Part shown: positions 24,771 through 57,595 of the stretch, piece by piece | How positions within the stretch are numbered: the first letter of the stretch is position 1 | Layout of the letters: each line of letters starts with the position of its first letter | DNA from: Argentina anserina | Taxonomy: Eukaryota; Streptophyta; Magnoliopsida; Rosales; Rosaceae | DNA length: 64,000 nt | Assembly (NCBI RefSeq): GCF_933775445.1 | Contig: NC_065872.1 | Location: 23,126,001-23,190,000, forward strand | Direction: 5' to 3' | Notes under the pieces: generated by a model | Database searches by the model: none | What the model saw: only the letters and a program-made list of their open reading frames with translations | Told to the model about the DNA's origin: nothing | Translations under genes and position numbers: made by a program

Positions 24771-25201
24771 CCAGGAAGCACGGAAATGTGCATACACCCA
24801 CGTTTCCCGCTTCCAAAGCGGAACCACTCCGGAAACGGGCCGGAAACGCCCGGAAACACCCGGAAACGTGCCGAAAACGTGTTTCCAGAAAAATGAGTTT
24901 TGGAAACGCGGTGGAAACGCGAGTTTCTGAATTGGAAACGCGATGGAAACACGAGTTTCCGAATTGGAAACGCGAGTTTCCAAAATATAAAGGTTTTTTT
25001 TATGTTTTTTTATTTGAGATTTTGAGTTACTTAAACTAAAAATTTATTATTATATTTTTTTGTATAATTTATATATATTTATATTTTTTTTATTTCGACG
25101 TTTCCAAAACGTACCCGCTTCCTAAATTTTTTGAAAAACACGCTTCCGCGTTTCCAAACGTTTCGCTTCCACGTACCCGTATCCGATTCCGTGCAGCCTA
25201 G
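24771..25201. mobile_element. Small non-autonomous hAT element (431 bp), GGAAACG-rich
   Basis: The element starts CCAGGAAGCACGGAAATGTG and ends GATTCCGTGCAGCCTAG, and is flanked on both sides by ATACTACT (24763-24770 and 25202-25209), an 8-bp duplication typical of hAT. It has no coding capacity. The left half contains nine GGAAAC words within about 140 bp, as CCGGAAACG or TGGAAACGCG, plus inverted copies GTTTCC in both halves. Such dense subterminal words are where hAT transposases bind. A relative in the opposite orientation is at 58166-58756. Confidence 0.9.
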
Positions 25202-25209
25202 ATACTACT

Positions 25210-25950
25210 ACACTCTCATACTCGTTTTGGTGTGCTGATACGTTTTTACTCATCTAATCCGCCGCTCCACTTCATTTTCTACAAATCTCATCATTCTTAC
25301 TATTGCATGCGGATATACTCATCTAATCATCGTATTTCACTCATAATTTTTTGCTACTATATCTATTAAGGTTCATGTGGTTACGTGTTATTGCTACCGT
25401 TAGTTGAGACTACATTTGATTACCATTTGCTACTTATCAAATCATGTTATTGCACTCATAATTGTCATTGTTAGCAACTGTTACTATTAAAATCACCATG
25501 TTACTGCTTCTAAAAGGTTTATCATGCTTGTGTTGCTCATGGTGGCTAAAATACGAAATTCCAAAGTTTCTCAAAATATATATTTCACTATTCTCAAATG
25601 AAAGCTCATAAGATAAGGAATAACTTTGTAGTTTAAATCTTCTCCAAATTGTCGACGATTTAGCAAGAAAACTTGAAGTTTTCAAAAATAACTGAAAAAA
25701 CATGAGGGAGATACTTATCCGTCAATGGTGTGGTATTATGGTAATTTTCGCGAAATCAGTGATATTTCAACATCCAATAATTAGTTAGTTTTAGGATCAC
25801 ATAATTATGGGCTTGGACTTGGGCTTATGTTCTTATTTGTTAAAATCTTTTGTATGGTGAGATTTTTGTTTTTGGGGTTTGATAATTAAGGGCATTTAAA
25901 GACCCAAAATGTTAATTTGGCCTCCTAATTTGGGCTTCTGATAAAAAAGA
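25210..25950. other. AT-rich stretch before the Mutator-like element
   Basis: No gene seen. The left end of the large Mutator-like element must lie in this stretch or just after it, but I could not identify terminal inverted repeats or a 9-bp duplication. Confidence 0.4.
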
Positions 25951-27720
25951 GTATGTGCAAAATCTCTACCCTTTAAAGTTTAAATTATTACAAACATGTC
26001 ACTCAAAACCTAACCGGCTAAACCGTCTCTCTCTCTCAGACTCCATTTCTCTTTCCCTCTTTCTTTTTCACACTTTCTCTCTCTCTTTCTCTCTGCAACT
26101 GCGCCAACCGCACAAAAACATTTGGTTGAAAATCGCTCAACATTCTCTCTCTCTCTCTCTCTCCCCCCAAACCGAGACAAACACTGGCGCCCGGATCAGA
26201 TTTTCCGACGAAGTTCATCTCTCTCTCCCCTCGTCCGCTGCCGCGCCTATCCTCCGCTCTCAAAGATGAGATAAACTTGAATCTGAATACTTAAACACAT
26301 TACAATCTCTATTTGGGTAACTATTTATCTGGGTAACACAATCTTGAATCTCTATTCCGGACGGATTTTTCTTCTTCATTTGAATATGAACTTATCTTCC
26401 TCCTATGGATTTGAATCTCTATGTTTGATATCAGTTAGTTAGGCTTGGGAAAGCTGTTGTTACATGAAATTGTGATTATACTCGGTTGATTACTCTATGC
26501 TTGCGTTGAATTCAATTTGTATGTGAGTATGATGAATGGGCCATCCTATAATGCTATAATCTCCTTTTGGTATGTTTTGCACATCTGAATTTATTTTTAG
26601 GTAACTAATTTTTCATACACCTAACTGTGTAAGTAACTATCCAAATAACTGAATTTATTGTTATACAGTATCGATTTGATTGCATGATTGTTCATGCACA
26701 TAACTGTGTAAGTAACTGTGGAAGTGGATTTAGAGCCTTGCTTTGTGTAGTAGGAATCCAAGAATGGCGAAAAGCTCTGATAGCTCACGCCAAGAAACAA
26801 CATCCGAACGCCTTGAGGTCAGAATCATATATAAATTATGAGCTACGCACAAAGGCGAGGAATGATTGTAATCTTGTGACTAATGAAGGTGATTCAGATT
26901 ATAATCCTTCAGAAGAGGCAAACGACAATTCTAAGGATTTTGGTTCAAAGGAGACAAAGGTGAGAATGTTACTAGTTGTAGTTTTTAGTATGATTTTTTT
27001 GTGTGTACATATGGATGGAACCATTATTAGGTAACTATCTTAGTATCTGTGCTTGTATCTTTGAGCTAACTATTTGGTGTTGGGTAACTCTCTAAGTAAC
27101 TGTGTGATTACTATTTCATAACTGTTCACTTAGCCTTGTGTATGTCTGCGTACATATCAGGTTACATCAATCTCTTTTTTTCTCATATATGCAGAAAAAC
27201 ATGGCCCCAAAAGTAGGCAATAGAAAAAGAAAAGAAGTTAGTAGCGATGACGATGACGATGCCAATGATGATAGAGATCACAATGCAGTAGTGAAGAGGC
27301 AAAAAAAAAGACACAAGAAAAGAAAAACAGAAGGGAATAAATCATGTAATAGTCATTGTACATTCATTTTACACTTATAAACTGTTAGCATAAGTATTAT
27401 GCTTGGGTAATGTAATTGTTAGTGTACTTATCATCCAACTATGATTCACTTTAAACATTTACAGGCAACAAAGAAAGCAAGGGCAACAACAAAGAAGACT
27501 ATTGCTCATCCAAAACCAACCAAGCTGCAGAGAAAAGAGATGAGGAAAGGAAGAGACAGAGAGGTAACTATCATTGTAACTGATTCAATAACTTGATAGG
27601 TAACTGTGAGTATAAAATAATTGTGTTAGTGTATTTATCATCTAACTATAATCTAGTTTTGAGTTTTATAGGAAACAAAGAAAGCAAGGAAGGCTAGTAG
27701 CAGTAGAGCCGAGAAAGGAA

Positions 27721-28140
27721 AAGACAAAAAAGTTAGTGCTCAACCTTGTAACTGCTTGTAATAACTTAATGGGTAACTGTATGAATGCAAAGTAACTGTG
27801 CATGTAACTTGATGTGTAACTGTGTCAGTGTATCATGTAACTTATTAAGAAACTATGTGATTGACCCTAAATAGTTCATTTTAGAAAATATATAAAGTAA
27901 CTATGTGAGTAACTGGATATGTAATTGTGTGAGTAACTGCATCTGCGTATCATGTAACTGTTTGAGTAACTGTATGAGTGTAAAGTAACTAGATTAGTAA
28001 CTGTGTGAGTAACTGTATTTGCATATCATGTAACTTATTAAGTAACTGTGTGACAGTAAAATAACTAGATTAGTAACAGTGTCAATAATGTGTATGCGTA
28101 TCATGTAACTGATTGAGTAACTGTTTGAGTATGATTTGTT
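27721..28140 (+). repeat. GTAACT-word cluster in introns of the VANC/Ulp1-like gene
   Basis: I counted 18 exact GTAACT hexamers on the plus strand in this 420-bp stretch, usually as GAGTAACTG, CATGTAACTT or AAGTAACTG, spaced about 12-40 bp. It is not a strict tandem array; spacer sequences vary while the hexamer is kept. The adjoining exon 28156-28811 has no GTAACT and one AGTTAC. The same word recurs in other introns and intergenic parts of the element between about 26.6 and 37.7 kb. Confidence 0.95.
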
Positions 28141-30009
28141 TTTGTCATTTACAGGAACCAACTTACCAATTCAGAAGCTCTCTCCCTTCCTTAAATGAAT
28201 ACGGCTCTGTACCCGAAGGCGCAATGAAGTTGCTGGATGATACTCCATTTGGGAGGCTTTTTCCAGCGATAGAGAAGGGGTTTGTGAAGGGGAGCGGCAA
28301 ATCAAATCTGCAAGTCGGAATGCTGGCAGAATGCTATGACGAAAAGAATAAAGGTTTTGTATTTGGAGGAAAGACCTACCGTCTTACTGATGCAGACACA
28401 ACAAATATATTAGGACTCAACCTAGATGGGTCCTATGTTGTCGCAAAGGTGAGTGAAGAATTTGACTTTACAAAGACTTTCTTTGGTGAAAAAAAGGATG
28501 TGGGCAAGGGCATGGTGCTTAAAAAGATACAGGAGGAGTGTAAAAAAAATCCGAAAACTGAAGAAGAGGTTGAGAGAAGGGATGAAAACATAGCACGCCT
28601 CATGATCCTAGACATGTTGATTAAGTTCTTAAGGCCCAATGTCAAAGGAGACATTTCATGGGACTATGTAAGGGCTGTGGAGAACTTGGATGAGTTGAAG
28701 AACATATGTTGGGCGAGGGAAGTTACTCATTATTTGAAAGGACGTATGACACAACTCAAACGATCCACATCTGAAATTCAAAACATTGGTGGTTGTATTC
28801 AACTCTTCTTGGTAAGCTCTCTTTATCTCAAGTACCATTACTGATTTTAAGAATTACGACCAATCTCTTTGAGTAACTTGATAGGTAACTGTGTCAGTGC
28901 ATCATGTAACTTGTTCCATAACTGTTTGAGTGTACTTGATTTTCCATACCAGTATTGGTTTTGCATGAAGAGCGGTAAGGTGCCAACAATGCCTGGTATG
29001 GATGTTGAGAAGCTACTGATCAAGAGATGGGATCTTGAAGAGCTCCGGAAAAAGCTGAAAAATTGCAACTTGAAAGATGTGGCGGTAAGTGTGCTCTCAT
29101 ATCCTTCACATTTGGTAACTGCATAAGTAACTGGTTATGTAACTGTCTGTATGTAATATAACTGTGCATGTAGCTTGATGGTTAACTGTGTAGATATCAT
29201 TGTAGCTAGTTGAGTAAATGTGTGATTGACTTTGAAAATAGTCATTCAGAGGATATATTTGCTTAACTAGGTGAATAATTGGATAGGTAACAGTGTGAGT
29301 AACTGGATAGGTATCTCTGTGCGCGATTGGATAAGTAACTATGTGAGTAACTGGATATGTAACTATATGAGTTTAAAGTAACTGTGTATGTAACTGTGAA
29401 ACTAACGGTATTGATATTTTGTAACTTGTTCAATAACTATGTGATTTAATCTTTTCAGAAAATGTTTCTCGATGTGGCGAAAGATCGCTTGGATGAGGAT
29501 GATGACGCGGAGAAGTCAAAGACAACAGATCCATTGGATAAGGATGATGAGATGGAGAAGTCAAAGACAACAGATTTGCATGAAGAGGAATTTGTGAAGA
29601 TTAAAGATTCACATGCAGAAGAACTTAGAAAGATGAATGAAAACCACAACATGCAGAAGGAGGAGCTGCAAGCGAAGTTGCTGAAACTAGAGGGTGATTG
29701 GGAAATGATGTATATCGCACATAAGATAATTGTTGAAATAAACAAAACACTCAAAAATAAAATACGGATCTCAAAGTCTATATCCGGAAGCTTGAGGAAA
29801 GGGATGGATTGTCAAACGATCAAGACAAACAAATTAAAAAAGATGAGAATCAAGTTGCCAAAGGATTAGAATAATCTTCTGCTTTTTTTTTAAATTGCAT
29901 TTAAACATTTTGTTGGTATGAAACAATTTATGTGACTTGCTACTTATAAAATATTTAAATCCAAGATTTTTAGTTGCATTTTGACTGGTATTATAGTTAC
30001 GCAGTTCAT

Positions 30010-30430
30010 TCTTGCTATTGTAAATGTAACTGTGTATGTAACTACCATTTGCACATGTGATTTTGCACACAAAATATTTGAGGTTATTGAACAGGCATCG
30101 TCCCAAGACACCGACATCTTAGAAGAAATAAACATGATTGAAACAGAGGCAAGAATGAAGCGGCAACATGAGTCTGACCAAAAATCCAAAGGTAACTATA
30201 GTAACTATATGAATAACTTGTAGTTACAAATTTCTTTTTTGCTATTGCAAATGTAACTGTGTATGTAACTACCATTTGCACATGTGATTTTGCTAACAAA
30301 AAACCTGAGGTGATTGAACTGGGCTCGTCTCAAGATACAGACATTTTAGAAGAGGTAGAAAGGATTGAAAAAGAGGCAACAATATAGCGAAATCATGAGT
30401 CGGATGTTGCTGCGCAAAAATCTGAGGGTA
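30010..30430 (+). repeat. Tandem duplication of an intron-exon unit (~227 bp)
   Basis: The block with GTAACTGTGTATGTAACTACC, CATTTGCACATGTGATTTTGC and the exon coding SSQDTDILEE appears twice, starting about 30010 and 30237. The first copy encodes IEQASSQDTDILEEINMIE; the second IELGSSQDTDILEEVERIE followed by a TAG. The duplication therefore added one exon to the gene, and the second copy has decayed. Confidence 0.85.
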
Positions 30431-31569
30431 TTTCTCATTCCAGTTGTTGATATGTAACTAACTGTGTTATATATCATAAATATAACTATAAATTCTTCCA
30501 TACTCTGTAGATTCCGAACTCGAGAAGGTAGATCGAAGACCTGAGAAGTGCATTAAGGGTATGTTACTACCTATGTAACTAGTTAGGTAACTATACATGT
30601 GATTTTAAAATTCTGCCTATCTGTTGATGTAACTCATAGTTACACAGGCAGTTACACAAGTAGTTACATGACTAATTTTGCTAAGAATTTAAATAACTTG
30701 TTAAGTAACTATACATGTAACTGATAGTTACATAGAACATTTATGCTAAGAATTGAAATAACTACTTAGGTAACTATACATGTAATTCTATAACTGATAA
30801 TTACACATGCAGTTACATGACCATTTTTGTATGTTTCTTACTCGACAGATAATGCAATGCAACAACATGTTTGATCACCGCCTCACTCAATCCCTAGAGA
30901 AGCAAGATGGTTGCCAGTGTCGCCGGTGACAGACATGCCATCATTCAATCTTGGATTCTCTCCTTTTTTAACTCCTACTTCACCTGTCATTCATATCCCG
31001 GCTAGTAATTACAAGAGTCCATCTCAGGTGATGATGGAGGCTAAACCAGAGAAGTATCAAATTATTGAATCACCACATGCAACTCCGATAAGCTATTTGC
31101 CAATGAAAAAGAAGGACCATTTGCCGGTGAAAAAGTATGACCATTTGCCGGCGAAGAAGAAGGTCCAGAAATTTGAATTGGACGAGAATGCTGGAAAGAC
31201 AGCATCCTCCTTGGGTCTGTACTCCTACATTGTCTGTTTGAAGGCCAAAATCCGAATTCCAAAAAAGTGTAATATATACTGGTGGGATGACGTGAAAAAA
31301 GCAAGAGAACAGAAAAAACGGGAGAAAGAAATGTGGGAAAGGAAGAAAAAGGAGGCTGAAGAACAGAAGAAGAATACAACATCTCAACTGAATATTTCCC
31401 CCGAGGTATTTGAGACGACAAAGAACGGTAATCTCGTATATGCTGTAACTGATACCGAAGAACCTGAGGCTAGCCCGGTGGTAGTGCCTGACTGGGACAA
31501 ACACCCTGTTTACAAATGTTTGGACCCTGATACAAAGCAGAGACTACGAGAATATTGTCAAGATGAAAA

Positions 31570-32045
31570 TGGGTAAGTACCTGGTTAACTAACTGACCTA
31601 GTAACTATCTATTATTGGTATCTATCTGCATAACTGTCTTTGTATTTGGATATTGGTAACTATCTGGGTATCTATTGGGGTAACTATCTGTGTAACTATC
31701 TTTGTTTTTGGTTGTGTAACTATCTAGGTAACTACTTGTGTGCCTGTCTTTGTATATGGATATTGGTAACTATCTACGTAACTGTCTTTGTATCTAGATG
31801 TGTAACTATCTATTGTTGGTAACTATCGAAGTAACTATCTGCGTAATTGTCTTTGTATCTAGATATTGGTACCTATTTGGGTAACTATATGTGTAACTTT
31901 CTTTGTATCTGGATATGTAACTATCTATTGTTGGTAACTATATAGGTAACTATCTACGTAACTGTTTTTGTATCTGGATGTGTAACTATCTATTGTTGAT
32001 AACTATCTGTGTAACTGTCTTTGTATCTGGATGTGTAACTGCAAC
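31570..32045 (+). repeat. GTAACT-word cluster with TATCT/GTCTTTGTATCTGG spacers
   Basis: About 20 exact GTAACT hexamers in 475 bp, as alternating GGTAACTATCT, TGTAACTGTCTTTGTATCTGG and TGTAACTATCTATTGTTGG. The spacing is more regular than in the 27.7-28.1 kb cluster, so local tandem duplication has amplified it. It lies in the intron right after the long exon. Confidence 0.93.
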
Positions 32046-32594
32046 TTTGTGACTTCATGTGCAGACTTTTTAATCTGGGAGGGCCCTGGGATCGCAACTG
32101 AAATAGGCATGTATGAAATCGAGTAGATGGTAATGCAAGCTCCAGTTGCAAACAACGTTATAGATGCATATGGAGCTTTGTTGTATGGTGAAATGAATGA
32201 AAAGAACAATCATTGTCCACCAACAGTGGAAGTCATGCACACACATTCTTGGGTAAAAAAACTGACTTTTGAGAAAGCAATAAAATGAAAAATTTATTTT
32301 GAAAACGACAACCTGAAAGAAAGCTAAGCCTTTGTTTTGTATGAAACAGAATGCGACGGAAACTCTTGAAGCCCAATACATGCACAAGTTCCAATGTGAA
32401 CCATTGTATGAGAAAATTGGAAAAGCAGACCTCATACTTTTCCCAATGACAGATGGAACAGGGTTTCACCACACTTTGTTGGTTTTTGATAGAGAAGGAT
32501 ACAGATTTGTCCATTTTGATTCGTTACGTAATACGTCAAAACCAGATAGCGGGGATAGCTTCAAGAATGCTGAAAAACTGGTATGCCGCCCTTA

Positions 32595-33230
32595 CTTATT
32601 TTCATTTAGCTAGTTACAGAGGCAGTTACATAGCTTGTTACCTTTCGTTGATGTTATTTACTTAGCTACCTTTAGTTGTTGTCCTTTAGCTTGTTACCTT
32701 TTCTTGCTCTCATTTAACTAGTTATGGGGACATTTACATAGCTAATTACCTTTACTTAATGTCATTTAGCCGGAGACAATTACATAGTTAGTTACCTTTG
32801 GTTGTTGTTATTTACTTAGTTACGAAGACAATTACTACCTTTATTTTCTGTCATTTACTTAGTTACCTTTGCTTATTGTCATTTACCTAGTTACGGAGAC
32901 AGTTACATAGCTAGTTACCTATGGTTTCTTTCATTTACTTAGTTATGGAGACAGTTACTTCCTTTATTTGCTGTCATTTACTTATTTACCTTTTCTTATT
33001 GTTATTTACCTAGTTACGGAGACAGTTACATAGCTAGTTACCTTTGGTTGCTGTCATTTACTTAGTTACGGAGACAGTTACATAACTAGTTACCGAGACA
33101 GTTACATATATATTTACCTTTACTTGATTTCATTTAGCTAGTTGCAGGAGACAGTTACATATCTAGTTACCTTTATTTAATGTCATATAGCTAGTTATGG
33201 AGACAGTCACATATCTAGTTACCTTGGGAA
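32595..33230 (-). repeat. AGTTAC-word array (inverted GTAACT) between Ulp1-like exons
   Basis: A degenerate tandem repeat of CTAGTTACGGAGACAGTTACATAG and CTAGTTACCTTTGGTTG.TGTCATTTACTTAG, carrying the GTAACT word on the minus strand. It fills the intron between the exon with the His/Asp motifs and the next Ulp1-like exon. Confidence 0.93.
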
Positions 33231-34436
33231 AACACTGCAACTAAAATTTAATGTTTTTTAATGTAAAAAAGGCTCGTATGATTAATATATGGATGAGAGC
33301 TGTCCAGGACCAAGCGGATGAAATGTTGAAGCAAGGATGCCGGTTTAGACCAGACGAGAACGAGAGCACTAATAAAACACTGAATTTGGTGCAACACCAT
33401 CTCTCTGATATTGAAAGGCAGACAATCATCTGGATTAAAGACAACTATATGATGAATATACCGTGGCTTCTTTCAAAGGACACTTGCCTCAACAAAAATC
33501 TGGGACGTAAGTACTGGTAACTGTCATAGTAACTATTAATAACTTTCTTGGTAACTGTCTAAGTACTAGTAACTGAATTTGTATCCTGGTAACTTGATTA
33601 GTAACTATCTTCATTACTTTTTATAACAGGATAGACTATGGAATTTACGTCCTATACTACATGAGCACAATTATATCTTTGGGGGAATAACCGACAAAGT
33701 TCACAAAGAAAGATGACATCAATCCTCCAAGGTATATGGCGAAAGTTTTGAAGAGATTTGTGGACAATCGGCACAGTTGGAGAAAAGCATAAACAAATAG
33801 GATTCAGATGTAGTAGGATTCAGATATGTAGGTGGAAAGTAATTAAGAAATTGTTTGATTTATGGAAATTCACATTATGTTGACTAACTTGCTTGGTAAT
33901 TGTATAATCATTTGGTAACTTTCTTAGTAACTATATTTCCGAATATTATCAAATAGTTCTACGGTTAATAAACCCTACACCATAAACGCCAAAACATTGC
34001 TCTGCGCCACTTATTGTTCACTCATGAGTATGATGACCATATTTACCATAAAAGAATCATCGTCACCACCCAAGTAACTATATATTGAACGTTTAAGTTT
34101 GTTGAGTTATCTAAAACTGCACTATGTGGATGCAAATTAGAACGTTAGGGTCCTACCATTTGATAATTGTTTTTTCTTTCATCAAAGGCAGCGTGCCGCT
34201 GCACCGCGCCTCGGCAGCGTTCCGCTGGACGAACCGATATGAAGAACTGACGTATTAAAGCCGGTAACTAACCAAATAACTACAAATGTAACCATATAAT
34301 ATCAATTATGTAAAAAACAATCTACTATTGCTTACTCAGTATATCTGCTATGAGCAATGTATATTATTTCTAAATACACGAACAAAATATCTGCTAATAT
34401 AATTCAAGATTTATATTAAAGTAACTAGGATAGTAA

Positions 34437-37165
34437 CTATATTGGGTTTTTACAAGTCAATCTGTTGTGATTTGCATACTTCTTGCACCTACTACATTTG
34501 ATTGTCCTTAGAACTTCATTCTTACTTCTAAACCTCTGTGTCTTTGGCCTTCCAGCCCGCCTTTTTGTCAAAGGCGGCTCCAATATAAATAATGAAGATA
34601 GAGCTACATCGACCGGCTTTAAAATTGTAGGAACAAGATTGATTGAAAAAGAATACGTCTCAAGGTACTTTTCCACCTTTACAAACACACAACAAAAAAC
34701 AATAGTTACCAAAACAGTTAGTTAGACAGTTACACAGGCTGAGACCACATGTAATAGGATGTGTAACTAGCTAAGAAATACCTGCACAACAACAAAATAA
34801 ATAGTGTAGAGATTAAAGAACAATAACGCACCGTGAAAATAGGGTTGATGTATGAGTAAGGCGAGGCACCATGTTGCTGAATGACAACGAGGGCATGTGA
34901 GCAAGGAAATCCATGAACTTGCCATTCTCCACACGAACAATAAGAATCTGTCAAATTCACCATAACTGAATACTTCTGAGTTTGAACTTCATACACATGG
35001 GTATCAAATCTGCTAATTTTCCAGTATCTTCCCAACTCCAAGTTATCAATTAACTTCTTTTCTACCCTCGGGCACAACTCAGTGATCCAATTTTTTGAGT
35101 CTTCTTTACAAGTTGCAATTAGCACCATAGACTTAATTCTAATACCTTCATTAAGCTCAATAATAGGAAGACTTTTCAAATCCTTCACCCAATTATTGAA
35201 GCACTCAGCGAGATTGTTTGTCATTTCTCCAAACCTTTCACCATTAAAGTAAGATGAAGCCCATGTGTCCAAAGGGAGATCCACTAAAAATTTTTCAACA
35301 ACTTCACCACCTTCACGCTTAAATTTCTCAAAGTTCATCTGAAACTGATCCGTGGTACGGGAATAAGTACAACACATGAATAATTTTGAAATCCTGCTTC
35401 TAAGATATGAACCAACAACAAACTTTCCTTCAAGATTATCACGGAGATGCCTGTAACAATATCCCACTGGAGCGTTAGGAAACACTGATGGACTGATTTA
35501 CGAAGCCCATGATTGCGATCAGAAATGAATGTGATCTGCCTTGTAGAGTATGTAGACATATATTCAGCTAAAATCCCCAAAAAGAACGTCCGGTTATTCT
35601 CGGTTTCAGAATCCACAATAGCATAAGCTACCGGATACAAACCTGTAAAACAATCAAAAAAAAGAACATAAGTACCTATATACGTAACTATGTAAGTAAC
35701 CATGTCAGATTCTTAGTTAAATGAATAGTTACAATGTTAGATTCGTAGTTACATAAATAGTTACATTCACAGAAACGTTTGGAAGTGAGAAAGCAAAAGA
35801 ATAATAAGAGGTATTTATGTAACTATTTGTAATACTGGTCAAGTAAGTCATATATTCAAAGTTACTTGACTAGTTACATAAACATAGTCCACATGAAGGA
35901 AATCAGAAAAGAAGAAGAAATTAAGGGGCAGGACCTTGATTTGCATCCTTTGCTGATGCAGAAAGAAGCTATCCTTTGTACTTATTGGTGATAAAGGTAG
36001 CATCAATAAAGAGAATTAGTTTGCAACTCTGGAAATCTTTCATCCAAGCATCATAACTCACAAATAAACGAAGAAACCTTTTTGTTTCTATATCCCATTG
36101 CACTGTCACCCTTGAACCAGGGTTGCATTCAACGGTGCGGTTGCAGAACCAAGACAAATGATTGTAAAACTCAGCTTCATTACCAAGAAATTCTTCTCTA
36201 GCGCGTTCCCTACCATACTAGGCAGTACAATAAGGAACATCCAAACCATAATTTTGTTTTATATCTTGACATATATCAATAGCCTTCTTGTTAGGATTCT
36301 CCCGCAACTTATCAAGCATTATCTCCTTTATAATCTTGCTTCCCATCATCTTACTCTTTTGAAGTCGGATAACACCACGACATTTATGTTCGTTCACCAA
36401 TTCCTTAATCTCAAAGAAACCATTATACCTGCGTAAAAAGTATCATCAATGAAACTAACTACAATAAAATAATAAAAATAATAAGAGTAACTGCAAGGAG
36501 AACTGCTAAAGTAACTGAGATAAAACTCTAGTAACTATGAATGTAATTAAACTGGAATGAAAAACATATACATTATACCTGCTTAAAGATACCTTCACAG
36601 ACCACTCACAATCTTCAGAAACGTTCTTCTTATAGCAAGCAACAACACGATGCTTCGTATTTGTAACAAAATCAAATTCAAATCCAACTTCAATTGCATA
36701 CATTCTCAACTTCGTCCTAAACTCTTTCATGCCATCCTAAAAAATCTAACCTTTGGAGTGAATCAGAGATTCCCATCCTTTTGTTAAATACATCTTTGAT
36801 GCCTCCCGCCTATAACAACCCAAGTACTCATTTTCATCAAGCATCACACTAGACTCGTCACTAACATCATTGCTCACTACACTGGAAGAAGATCAACTAG
36901 CATCCATCAAGCAGACATCTACATCAACAAAATCAGAATTATACCGCTCTAAAACTCTAAACATCAACTTCATGTCAACTTCATTTCCCAATTGGTATAC
37001 AGTAGTATCTGGAGGAACAATATACTTGAGCTTCAAAGCACCTCTACACAAATCTAGAAAACGATCTCTTACGCAGTGACAAAAATCGGGGAAAGAACAA
37101 TTATATGAAAATGAAATAGCTGCTCCTTCACCAGAATATACAAGATTAGCTATAAATCCTTCCAT
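34437..37165 (-). pseudogene. MURA transposase of the Mutator-like element, decayed
   Basis: DDE transposase of the Mutator superfamily, read on the minus strand. Exons: 36760-37165 (N-terminal domain), about 36591-36738 (FRTKLRMYAIEVGFEFDF, the Mutator DNA-binding domain), 35935-36430 (first Asp in FIDATFITNKYKG), 34840-35645 (LYPVAYAIVDSE, second Asp in ISDRNHGL, Glu in NNLAECFNNW, then the SWIM finger CSCGEWQVHGFPCSH) and about 34437-34690 (KRRAGRPKTQR and a zinc-knuckle-like CSRCKKYANHNRLTC). Disabling changes: TGA at 36893-36895, TAG at 36218-36220 where the family has Trp, TAG at 35969-35971, and a frameshift near 35485 just after the second Asp. All catalytic landmarks are still visible, so decay is moderate. 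The element can no longer move itself. Confidence 0.92.
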
Positions 37166-38039
37166 TCCACCTACAAAAGAGATTATGAATCATAATCAGA
37201 TGGATAGTACCTATAAACACCTGGTAACTATACAATCAGTGTAACTAGGGTTGGAATTGTAACAATGCAAATAACCATACATGTAACTATCCGAGCTACA
37301 AATTACCAGCAAGGTAACTACGAAGCAACATACTAAATAATGAAAGTAACACACAAAAGCAAAATTCAAAAACTATAGACTCAAAACAATGTGAAGCAAT
37401 CAACAAATCAATTATTCATTTTGACAAGACAAAAACGAAAGGGAAAACAACATGTGAAGACCGAAAGAAATCAAAATAAAACTACTGACTACTCAATATA
37501 CAATGAAACAAAGTCGAAATGACATATGAAGCTATCAGAGTTGACAAACAAGCTAAAATTAAGTAAATAGCTCAAGTAACTGACAAAGTAACTACCAACA
37601 TAACTGTGAGACAAAACGAAAGAAACATCATGATACAAAACAAAACAACAAATGCAGCTATAAAAGTTGACAAACCAGCTAAAATCAAGAAAATAACTCA
37701 AGTAACTACCAACATAACTGTGAGACAAACAAAAGAAACTTAAAAAATTTCGAGCAATGTACGAAATCAGAGAGCAAAATGTAATCTAACAACGCTGAAA
37801 ACCTATCTAAACAGGAAATACAACATTGTAACTGAAAAATCACACAATATAATTTACCCAAATCGAAATAAACTATGATGATTTGAATGATCAAACAAGA
37901 AAATGATGACCATTGAGACGAAATTGATGTAAGGCGTGCATTGATTACCTGAGATCAGAAGAGGAGCTTCAATGCCAGAATGACAGATGGAGAAGAAGAA
38001 CTGACCAGGTTGTCTTCGTCTTCGTCTTCAACATCGTCT

Positions 38040-38071
38040 TCAATAGAAACGGAGAGAGAATTTCGATCTGG

Positions 38072-38102
<31 letters not shown>

Positions 38103-38135
38103 GTTTCGATGAGAAAGCTTCGATCAAGAGAGAGA
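38040..38135 (-). promoter_or_regulatory. CT-rich probable 5' leader of the MURA gene
   Basis: On the minus strand this is CTCTCTC-rich with interspersed TCGAAAC words, placed upstream of the MURA reading frame. A similar CT-rich tract lies at 26025-26270 upstream of the opposing gene. Both look like plant 5' leaders; no clear TATA box was fixed. Confidence 0.4.
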
Positions 38136-38139
38136 GAAG

Positions 38140-38829
38140 GAGAAATTTAGATCAGTTACAAGTAATATCAGGTAAAAAGAAGAAGAAAGGGTATACAGGT
38201 CATAGGGAAAAAAGAAAACATCACCCTTTTATCATTTTGTAAAAGAAAAAGAACATTTTTATTATTCATACTCTTTAATTAGGGTCTTTTGTATTCAACG
38301 GTTTCATTAATGAAGGTTTGAGGGCAGCCGCACTAGCCCTTATATAAAAAAAACATATCAGTTAAAGTAAAAAAGAAAGAGGGAGAGGGGAGAGAAAGAG
38401 CGCCAATTTGGGAAATTGTCAAATCTTGACCAACAATAACTCCACCTATATTATTAGTACCCTAGTATGTGCGAGTACTAGTGTGATTAGGAATTATTTG
38501 TGATGTTCTCGTTGGAGCCAACATCAACAAGGCAGACACATAATTATGGAGAGAGACTATAGCCATAACAAAGAGTCTGGAGTTACATGTCCAACCCTCA
38601 TGTGCATTTATGTGTTGAAAGCAATCAAGAGCAAATGACCACTCTAATTGCATATCTAACATAGACCTTGAGATTCACTACTGGTGAATGGAGTCAAACG
38701 AAGAATCAAGTCATCAAGGGATGCAGAACGGTTCTGCAGCTGGAGCAGCAACTATAAGTGGAAGGACCAAATAAAACACCACAACTAGATAGTTGATTTA
38801 GATCTTGGAAAAGTGTTGCGGATAGAGAC
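38140..38829. other. Between Mutator-like element and Copia gag remnant
   Basis: The right terminus of the Mutator-like element probably lies in the left part (38150-38345). The remainder has no recognisable gene and may be more of the decayed Copia element that follows. Confidence 0.4.
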
Positions 38830-56900: not shown

Positions 56901-57595
56901 ACCGATCTATCCGTCACATTACCTGTCACACTACCAGCCATATTATCAGTCACACTAACTTTGTGATGTGATAGGTAGTGTGATAGGTATTGTGACAGGT
57001 ATTGTGATAGCTAATGTGATAGGCAGTGTGACAGGTAGTGTGATAGCTAGTGGGATAAGTAGTGTGACAAGCAGTGTGACTGGTGGTGTTATGTACGACA
57101 ACATAAGTGTCGATATGTAGATCATATTAGTTCAAGATTACACAGTTCTGTGATAATGAGTGTGATAGGAGGTGTGACAGGAGGTGTGACAGTTAGTGTA
57201 ATAGGTAGTGTGATAGTGGTTATGACAAGTAGTGTGACAGAGGTTGTCACAGTGGGTGTAAATAGATAGTGTGATAGCGGTTGTGACAGTATGTGTGACA
57301 ATATCTGTGACAGCGTCTGTGACAGGAGCTGTGACATGTCGAGAGGAAATGTGGAAATATGTGAAATTTTGTTAAAATTCAAATGAGATTGGTATGACAG
57401 TGGGTGTGACCGTTAGTATAAATAGATAGTGTGACAGCTTCTGTGACAGTGGGTGTGATAGGAGCTGTGACAGCGTCTGTGACAGTGTCTGTGACAGTGT
57501 CTGTGACAACGTCTGTGACAGGAGTTGTGACATGCCGAGAGGAAATGTGGAAATATGTGAAATTTTGTTAAAATTCAAATGAGATTGGTATAAGT
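56900..57595. repeat. TGTGACAG-type minisatellite with a ~200-bp duplication
   Basis: About thirty TGTGA words, mostly as GTGTGATAG, CTGTGACAG or GTGTGACAGG, in roughly 600 bp. Toward the right they become regular (CTGTGACAGTGT repeats). The flank GAGAGGAAATGTGGAAATATG and the following AATTTTGTTAAAATTCAAATG occur twice (about 57338 and 57537), so one block of about 200 bp is duplicated. The minus-strand LSQTLSQ-like ORFs are by-products of the repeat. Confidence 0.9.

Follow-up and report, generated by a model that had tools for sequence, protein, structure and literature searches.

The non-coding DNA of a defective Mutator-like element (MULE) of Argentina anserina is saturated with a single short word, GTAACT (AGTTAC on the opposite strand), which is specific to one family of such elements and is replaced by other words in two sister families, in agreement with the trees of the element genes. 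The element lies in the window analyzed in this study, a stretch of 64,000 nucleotides (contig NC_065872.1, positions 23,126,001 to 23,190,000, NCBI RefSeq assembly GCF_933775445.1), and carries a plus-strand gene beside a minus-strand gene for a MURA-type transposase. The word, in its longer form YAGTTAC, is probably the DNA address of the family (family A) in a self-recognition system of the VANC type, read by the family's own plus-strand protein and likely directed against silencing.

Between positions 26270 and 38170 of the window 136 words start, compared with 29 in the remainder (0.56/kb, both strands), a background that matches the chance rate of about 0.1 per 400 bp per strand given in the initial annotation. 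With exons delimited by hand according to open frames and splice sites, only two words are wholly exonic (28721 and 31445), one crosses an exon edge (34433), and the other 133 are non-coding, a highly uneven split between 5593 bp of exon and 6308 bp of other sequence (Fisher p 5.6e-34). The joined non-coding DNA thus holds 133 words, where 200 first-order Markov sequences average 8.1 and never exceed 15, while the joined exons are at chance level, with 2 words for a Markov mean of 1.7. The earlier proposal that exons avoid the word is therefore too strong, although it was right that they lack the enrichment. No 6-mer of the element is more enriched than GTAACT/AGTTAC (136 counted, 6.8 expected from the remainder of the window; 19-fold enrichment); its single-base neighbors are at most 3.7-fold enriched, except for GTTACT (6.3-fold), which can overlap the word. 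AGTTAC is preceded by T or C in 123 of 136 cases, giving the longer form YAGTTAC (GTAACTR on the opposite strand), and words of one strand follow each other most frequently at 12 bp (32 GTAACT and 13 AGTTAC spacings). Both orientations occur in the introns and outside the reading frames.

The clusters that had been pointed out from the letters of the window alone were all recovered, with 18 words starting in 27721–28140, 20 in 31570–32045, 19 in 32595–33230, 32 in 28800–30800 and 8 in 33500–33950, as well as 7, 3 and 7 in the transposase-side clusters at 35650–35900, 36480–36540 and 37200–37720; altogether, 133 words start in the span of 26590–37720 that was first reported.

Family A was traced through the genome (236.8 Mb, 146 contigs) by searches that gave at least 50 matches for the transposase exon and at least 26 for the DUF1985-like exon, with about 1.5 kb compared on each side of 30 transposase and 26 DUF1985-like matches, the window's own included; the loci came from seven contigs of 24–37 Mb. 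The family A exons led to 12 other segments in 10 regions, all of which carry the word at 6.4–20.3/kb. Seven of these (five elements) have genes of the autonomous type and an AGTTAC density of 10.5/kb, and the other five, in which just a stub remains of the DUF1985 exon, reach 15.6/kb. The same word occurs at 0.68/kb in the 14 segments of sister clade B, 0.09/kb in clade C, 0.44/kb at eight other MULEs and 0.55/kb in the window outside elements, and other MULE and DUF1985 loci are likewise at background, so that an equal density in other DNA, which the initial annotation had named as damaging to its proposal, did not occur. Related intact copies without the word, named there as well, were not seen either, but all family A copies seen are broken, those outside the window having stops within or beside the matched frames, single pieces excepted. 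Genome-wide, triples of GTAACT with gaps of 0–10 bp occur in 297 places, against 9 for the reversed pattern. Three word-bearing segments have neither nucleotide similarity to the window element (1e-15) nor an exon match (1e-3), and their word density is no independent evidence since they were retrieved by the word itself.

The word is also kept between copies better than control hexamers. Comparing the window copy with seven related segments, and counting only positions with no gap within 50 columns, words were kept in 162 of 178 cases and non-coding hexamers of the same composition in 205 of 276, with 785/1279 for hexamers near words and 6312/8309 for exon hexamers; isolated GTAACT words were kept in 12 of 13. 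Seven family A segment pairs (five element pairs with no shared element; both directions counted, no gap within 40 columns) kept 286/336 words and 978/1303 hexamers of the same composition. Controls with mock words yielded few cases (16/21, 6/9 and 4/6).

Sister clades with words of their own are what a self-recognition code predicts. In clade B, of which the transposase pieces are mostly 45–59% identical to those of family A and the DUF1985 exon around 33%, the leading 6-mer falls within TGTCACA in all 14 segments (nine elements), and in clade C it is AGTAGC(A) in 3/3 segments (two elements). One clade B element, at C7:16439–16446 kb, is free of stops in its matches to both the DUF1985 exon and the transposase. 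TGTCACA reaches 7.5/kb in clade B, 0.83/kb in a degenerate relative of that clade (C4:10695 kb; 3 TGTCACA and 8 AGTCACA) and 0.06–0.39/kb elsewhere, while AGTAGCA reaches 5.4/kb in clade C and 0–0.32/kb elsewhere. The Arabidopsis words are at background here, with one YAGTATTAY and no AGTTGTMC in the window element. The single segment of clade D has CAGTAA 15 times (score 19.3; highest score among shuffles 12.2), which is suggestive of a further word. The word labels need four changes for five groups, which is the minimum, both on the transposase tree (24 rows) and on that of DUF1985 (16 rows, with a long-branch warning), and on neither tree was so low a number reached in any of 200 label shuffles. 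Support for family A is 99/98 on the transposase tree and 99/97 on the DUF1985 tree, and for clade B 100/100 and 94/92, respectively; families A and B are mutual nearest relatives on the transposase tree.

Triples of TGTCACA occur in 1842 places genome-wide, against 6 for the reversed pattern, which would point to many non-autonomous followers of clade B. One such element possibly lies in the window itself at 56924–57532, where there are 21 TGTCACA/TGTGACA, many in 12-bp steps. Triples of AGTAGCA occur in 364 places (e.g., C1:7424409–7424591) against 6, and among those listed they often have 25-bp steps; they were not scored as clade C. Two loci (L065 and L066, at C6:2123091 and C1:18270849) have open frames of the DUF1985/PMD type with no saturating word nearby; they may be genes of the host or belong to a different kind of element.

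A single template, Y-W-G-T-N-R-C, accommodates the words of all three clades (YAGTTAC in A, YTGTCAC(A) in B and YAGTAGC(A) in C); it was drawn post hoc, after the words were seen. The leading T or C is found in 616/712 words of pooled family A, 318/376 of B and 60/69 of C, but in just 3 of the 8 AGTCACA of the degenerate B relative. The 12-bp step is common to A and B (279/592 and 219/347 of successive spacings up to 60 bp), whereas clade C has no clear 12-bp step and its commonest spacing is 20 bp. It is conceivable, though this is a tentative reading that we would not yet lean on, that three or more address codes exist in parallel among the transposons of one genome, all going back to a single template: a reader that holds on to one half-site and to a constant pitch, perhaps by lining up next to its neighbors on the DNA, while the other half-site changes, would split one family into mutually blind codes.

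The product of the plus-strand gene is a plausible reader of the word. Its exons run in the order basic/acidic N-terminal, DUF1985/PMD-like, coiled-coil-like and Ulp1-like (C48), and a profile of six DUF1985-like proteins from this genome, the window's included, found VANC21 in the PDB (9lnj, 9lnk) at E 9.1e-6. Profile comparison of a four-protein set with two DUF1985/PMD proteins gave probabilities of 62% and 1.4%, and a clade E relative matches DUF1985 at E 3e-6, still below the Pfam cut-off. PDB searches with the window exon alone, three single relatives or the clade B exon did not return VANC21, and a single-sequence structure model of the DUF1985-like exon had a mean pLDDT (predicted local distance difference test) of 37.5. 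The candidate reader is thus likely kin to VANC21 at the domain level, a kinship not proven for family A alone.

According to Hosaka et al. (2017; PMC5735166), VANC21 binds YAGTATTAY and VANC6 goes with AGTTGTCC/AGTTGTAC, these words being fast-changing tandem repeats in the non-coding DNA of Arabidopsis VANDALs, and VANC proteins cause loss of methylation (see also PMC10398659). VANDAL21 (PMC5735166) resembles the element described here in having a DUF1985 protein beside the transposase (here a DUF1985-like one, below the Pfam cut-off), a short tandem-repeat word in non-coding DNA that is lacking in coding probes, a fast-evolving reader (here a candidate) next to a more conserved transposase, and a word that begins with YAGT. 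It differs in that the word here is YAGTTAC, often in 12-bp steps, with a Ulp1-like domain present and no DUF287 match, and in that binding and demethylation are demonstrated for VANC21, while the function proposed here is putative. VANDAL6/VANC6 provides the parallel of related elements with a different word in non-coding tandem repeats, and of an element unrelated to VANDALs that bears the same word (PMC5735166); the word here is another one, and its function is again putative. Some VANDALs with a Ulp1-bearing VANC gene recognize words in elements of their own kind, according to a 2026 review (PMC13317346), and those of the KIU type (Kaonashi) are Mutator-like, with a Ulp1-like gene and no clear terminal inverted repeats, features that this element appears to share; unlike Kaonashi, the elements here have a Rosaceae host and other words, several of which coexist in a single genome. 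The VANDAL traits present are the MURA-type transposase and a short non-coding word that differs between related families. The suggestion that the code arose independently of the Arabidopsis systems found no support, as the kinship of the DUF1985 parts, and the YAGT with which both this word and that of VANC21 begin, hint at a common origin.

In the explanation that we favor, a DUF1985/Ulp1-type protein made by intact copies, present or past, would bind rows of YAGTTAC in introns and upstream regions, the words being commonly spaced by 12 bp. Once bound, it would most likely counter host DNA methylation and silencing of its own family, as VANCs do for Arabidopsis VANDALs; both the binding and the removal of silencing marks are inferred. 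The protein would also act in trans on non-autonomous relatives in which the word is kept, and the sister families in the genome would follow the same plan with other words.

Several observations weigh against this explanation. No intact family A copy was found among those examined, the window copy being broken too. Clade E (three segments; in one copy both the DUF1985 exon and the transposase are open) has no saturating word, nor do three further DUF1985 loci, the top 6-mers of all of these lying within the range of 40 shuffles. The DUF1985, PMD and C48 matches of the window gene are all below the Pfam cut-offs, and a profile of four proteins, made by leaving out the two more typical DUF1985/PMD proteins, retrieved two weak other matches from the PDB and no VANC21. 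A search with the joined reader in 5.8 billion proteins, of which 7996 candidates were scored, yielded no relative at E 0.001. The p-values of the retention tests overstate the case, as the copies share history, and it is the direction that counts. One of the seven family A pairs showed no difference (34/48 words and 133/188 hexamers), and TGTCAC, with few cases, was kept in 22/29 against 636/926. Dense words can, moreover, arise by tandem amplification alone.

The last three points could be accommodated if the words were passive minisatellites, a 12-bp unit spread through introns by slippage and unequal exchange with no protein reader, and it is true that many words are in tandem arrays and that introns tolerate repeats. 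Such an origin is unlikely, however, since linkers vary between copies while the word stays, even where it is isolated, and since the arrays of different introns and orientations have the word but not whole units in common. Neither would it be expected that two sister families have different words at the same 12-bp step, nor that the same word fills the three segments, retrieved by that word, with no detected similarity to the element. A reading of the words as binding sites of the MURA transposase, comparable to the subterminal repeats of other DNA transposons, would agree with their following the transposase tree as well. Transposase binding sites usually cluster near transposon ends, whereas the termini of this element are nearly word-free (0 in 25801–26316 and 1 past 37828) and its internal introns are full, and this reading is accordingly quite improbable.

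That a host DNA-binding factor reads the word, the transposon having gathered its sites for tissue-specific expression, has precedent in transposons known to gather host sites, but within a single host genome the word differs from one sister clade to another, in line with the transposon gene trees, which leaves this alternative with only a slim chance. A role in RNA, as splice donors, splicing enhancers or decoys, is suggested by the resemblance of GTAACT to a 5' splice site, and the introns of the plus-strand gene at 27564 and 30192 do start with the word, which would act there as the donor. It is nevertheless hardly credible: all 19 words in the intron at 32582–33271 are antisense, which argues for DNA rather than RNA as the medium of the word, and the transposase introns hold both orientations. 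Words also occur between and outside reading frames, segments with no detected exons are full of them, and the TGTCACA of clade B is unlike a donor.

Features of the family A element in the window (positions counted from the first letter of the window)
Feature	Positions	Strand	Basis
Defective family A Mutator-like element	25880..38284 (ends approximate)		Similarity to copy C6:7036k begins at ~25875-25892
Plus-strand gene, candidate reader	26763..33790	+	Frames and splice sites by eye, Pfam
Intron with 3 GTAACT	26960..27194		Word count
Intron with 3 GTAACT, the first at the 5' splice site	27564..27671		Word count
Word array, 18 GTAACT, one intron	27732..28154		Word count
DUF1985/PMD-like exon	28155..28811	+	PMD E 2.6e-4, DUF1985 E 0.014, both below Pfam cut-offs
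Intron with 3 GTAACT	28812..28952		Word count
Word array, 10 GTAACT, one intron	29085..29458		Word count
Putative coiled-coil-like exon	29459..29866	+	Weak Tropomyosin match, E 0.02, below cut-off
Four introns, 13 GTAACT and 7 AGTTAC	29870..30847		Word count
Word array, 20 GTAACT, one intron	31572..32064		Autocorrelation peak at 12 bp
Ulp1-like (Peptidase C48) exons flanking a word-filled intron	32065..33790	+	PF02902 E 0.0042 in one exon, below cut-off
Inverted word array, 19 AGTTAC, one intron	32582..33271		Word count
Last intron with 6 GTAACT, intergenic stretch with 6	33507..34437		Word count
MURA-type transposase gene (MULE, SWIM zinc finger, PB1-like N-terminal exon)	34437..37172	-	Pfam: SWIM E 4.4e-10 (above cut-off), MULE E 5.7e-4 and PB1 E 0.008 (below)
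Transposase intron, 1 GTAACT and 2 AGTTAC	34671..34833		Word count
Transposase intron, 2 GTAACT and 5 AGTTAC	35646..35934		Word count
Transposase intron, 3 GTAACT	36437..36575		Word count
Upstream of the transposase reading frame, 8 GTAACT and 1 AGTTAC	37173..38170		Word count

The window copy has in-frame stops, among others in the plus-strand gene, and both genes have frame changes. At the D-C-G motif of the Ulp1-like part the window copy reads IDYG, where two other copies have IDCG. The SWIM zinc finger is the sole Pfam match of the element genes to pass its cut-off. Relatives of the transposase in Rosa and Fragaria are 60–63% identical, and no Arabidopsis protein was named among the best 120 of 143 matches, many of which are unnamed. 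DUF287, which is absent from some VANC types, had no match in the six plus-strand stretches scanned with Pfam, small exons lying outside the scan. No convincing terminal inverted repeats were found at the element ends. The 10-bp sequence TCTTTTGTAT is repeated directly at 25846 and 38285 and may be a target-site duplication, VANDAL target duplications being around 9 bp long, but the case is weak, since the repeat lies 20–35 bp outside the left limit of similarity to the copy at C6:7036k. The arrays at 27732–28154, 29085–29458, 31572–32064 and 32582–33271 have a CG observed/expected ratio of 0.33, compared with 0.57 for exons and 0.70 for the remainder of the window, as if they had been methylated over a long time. 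Just left of the element, a GC-rich stretch (24819–24975) holds tandem GGAAACG-type units of 10, 11 and 31–32 bp.

The principle of self-recognition is known from Arabidopsis and, according to the 2026 review (PMC13317346), from eudicots at large. The words themselves, parallel codes in one Rosaceae genome and a shared pitch were not found in the literature searched; AGTTAC, GTAACT and TGTCACA are absent from the text of the VANC papers searched, and nothing was found there for Fragaria vesca together with Mutator-like and VANDAL. The single paper in that literature that has GTAACT along with transposons and tandem repeats deals, judging from its title, with Drosophila condensin. The 2022 EMBO J work of Sasaki et al., which is outside that literature, may list similar words, and reportedly describes at least ten Arabidopsis VANC systems in which motif density and helical spacing play a role.

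VANC-type systems allow a selfish element to lift the silencing imposed on it while doing the host little harm. The elements described here provide three families, each paired with its word, in a single small plant genome outside Arabidopsis, which makes the joint change of a DNA-binding domain and its address directly testable. If a fixed pitch and a shared half-site hold true, they would provide a handle for designing sequence-specific demethylation tools, and a word saturating the introns of DUF1985/Ulp1 MULEs could then serve as a simple computational finder of such systems in other genomes.

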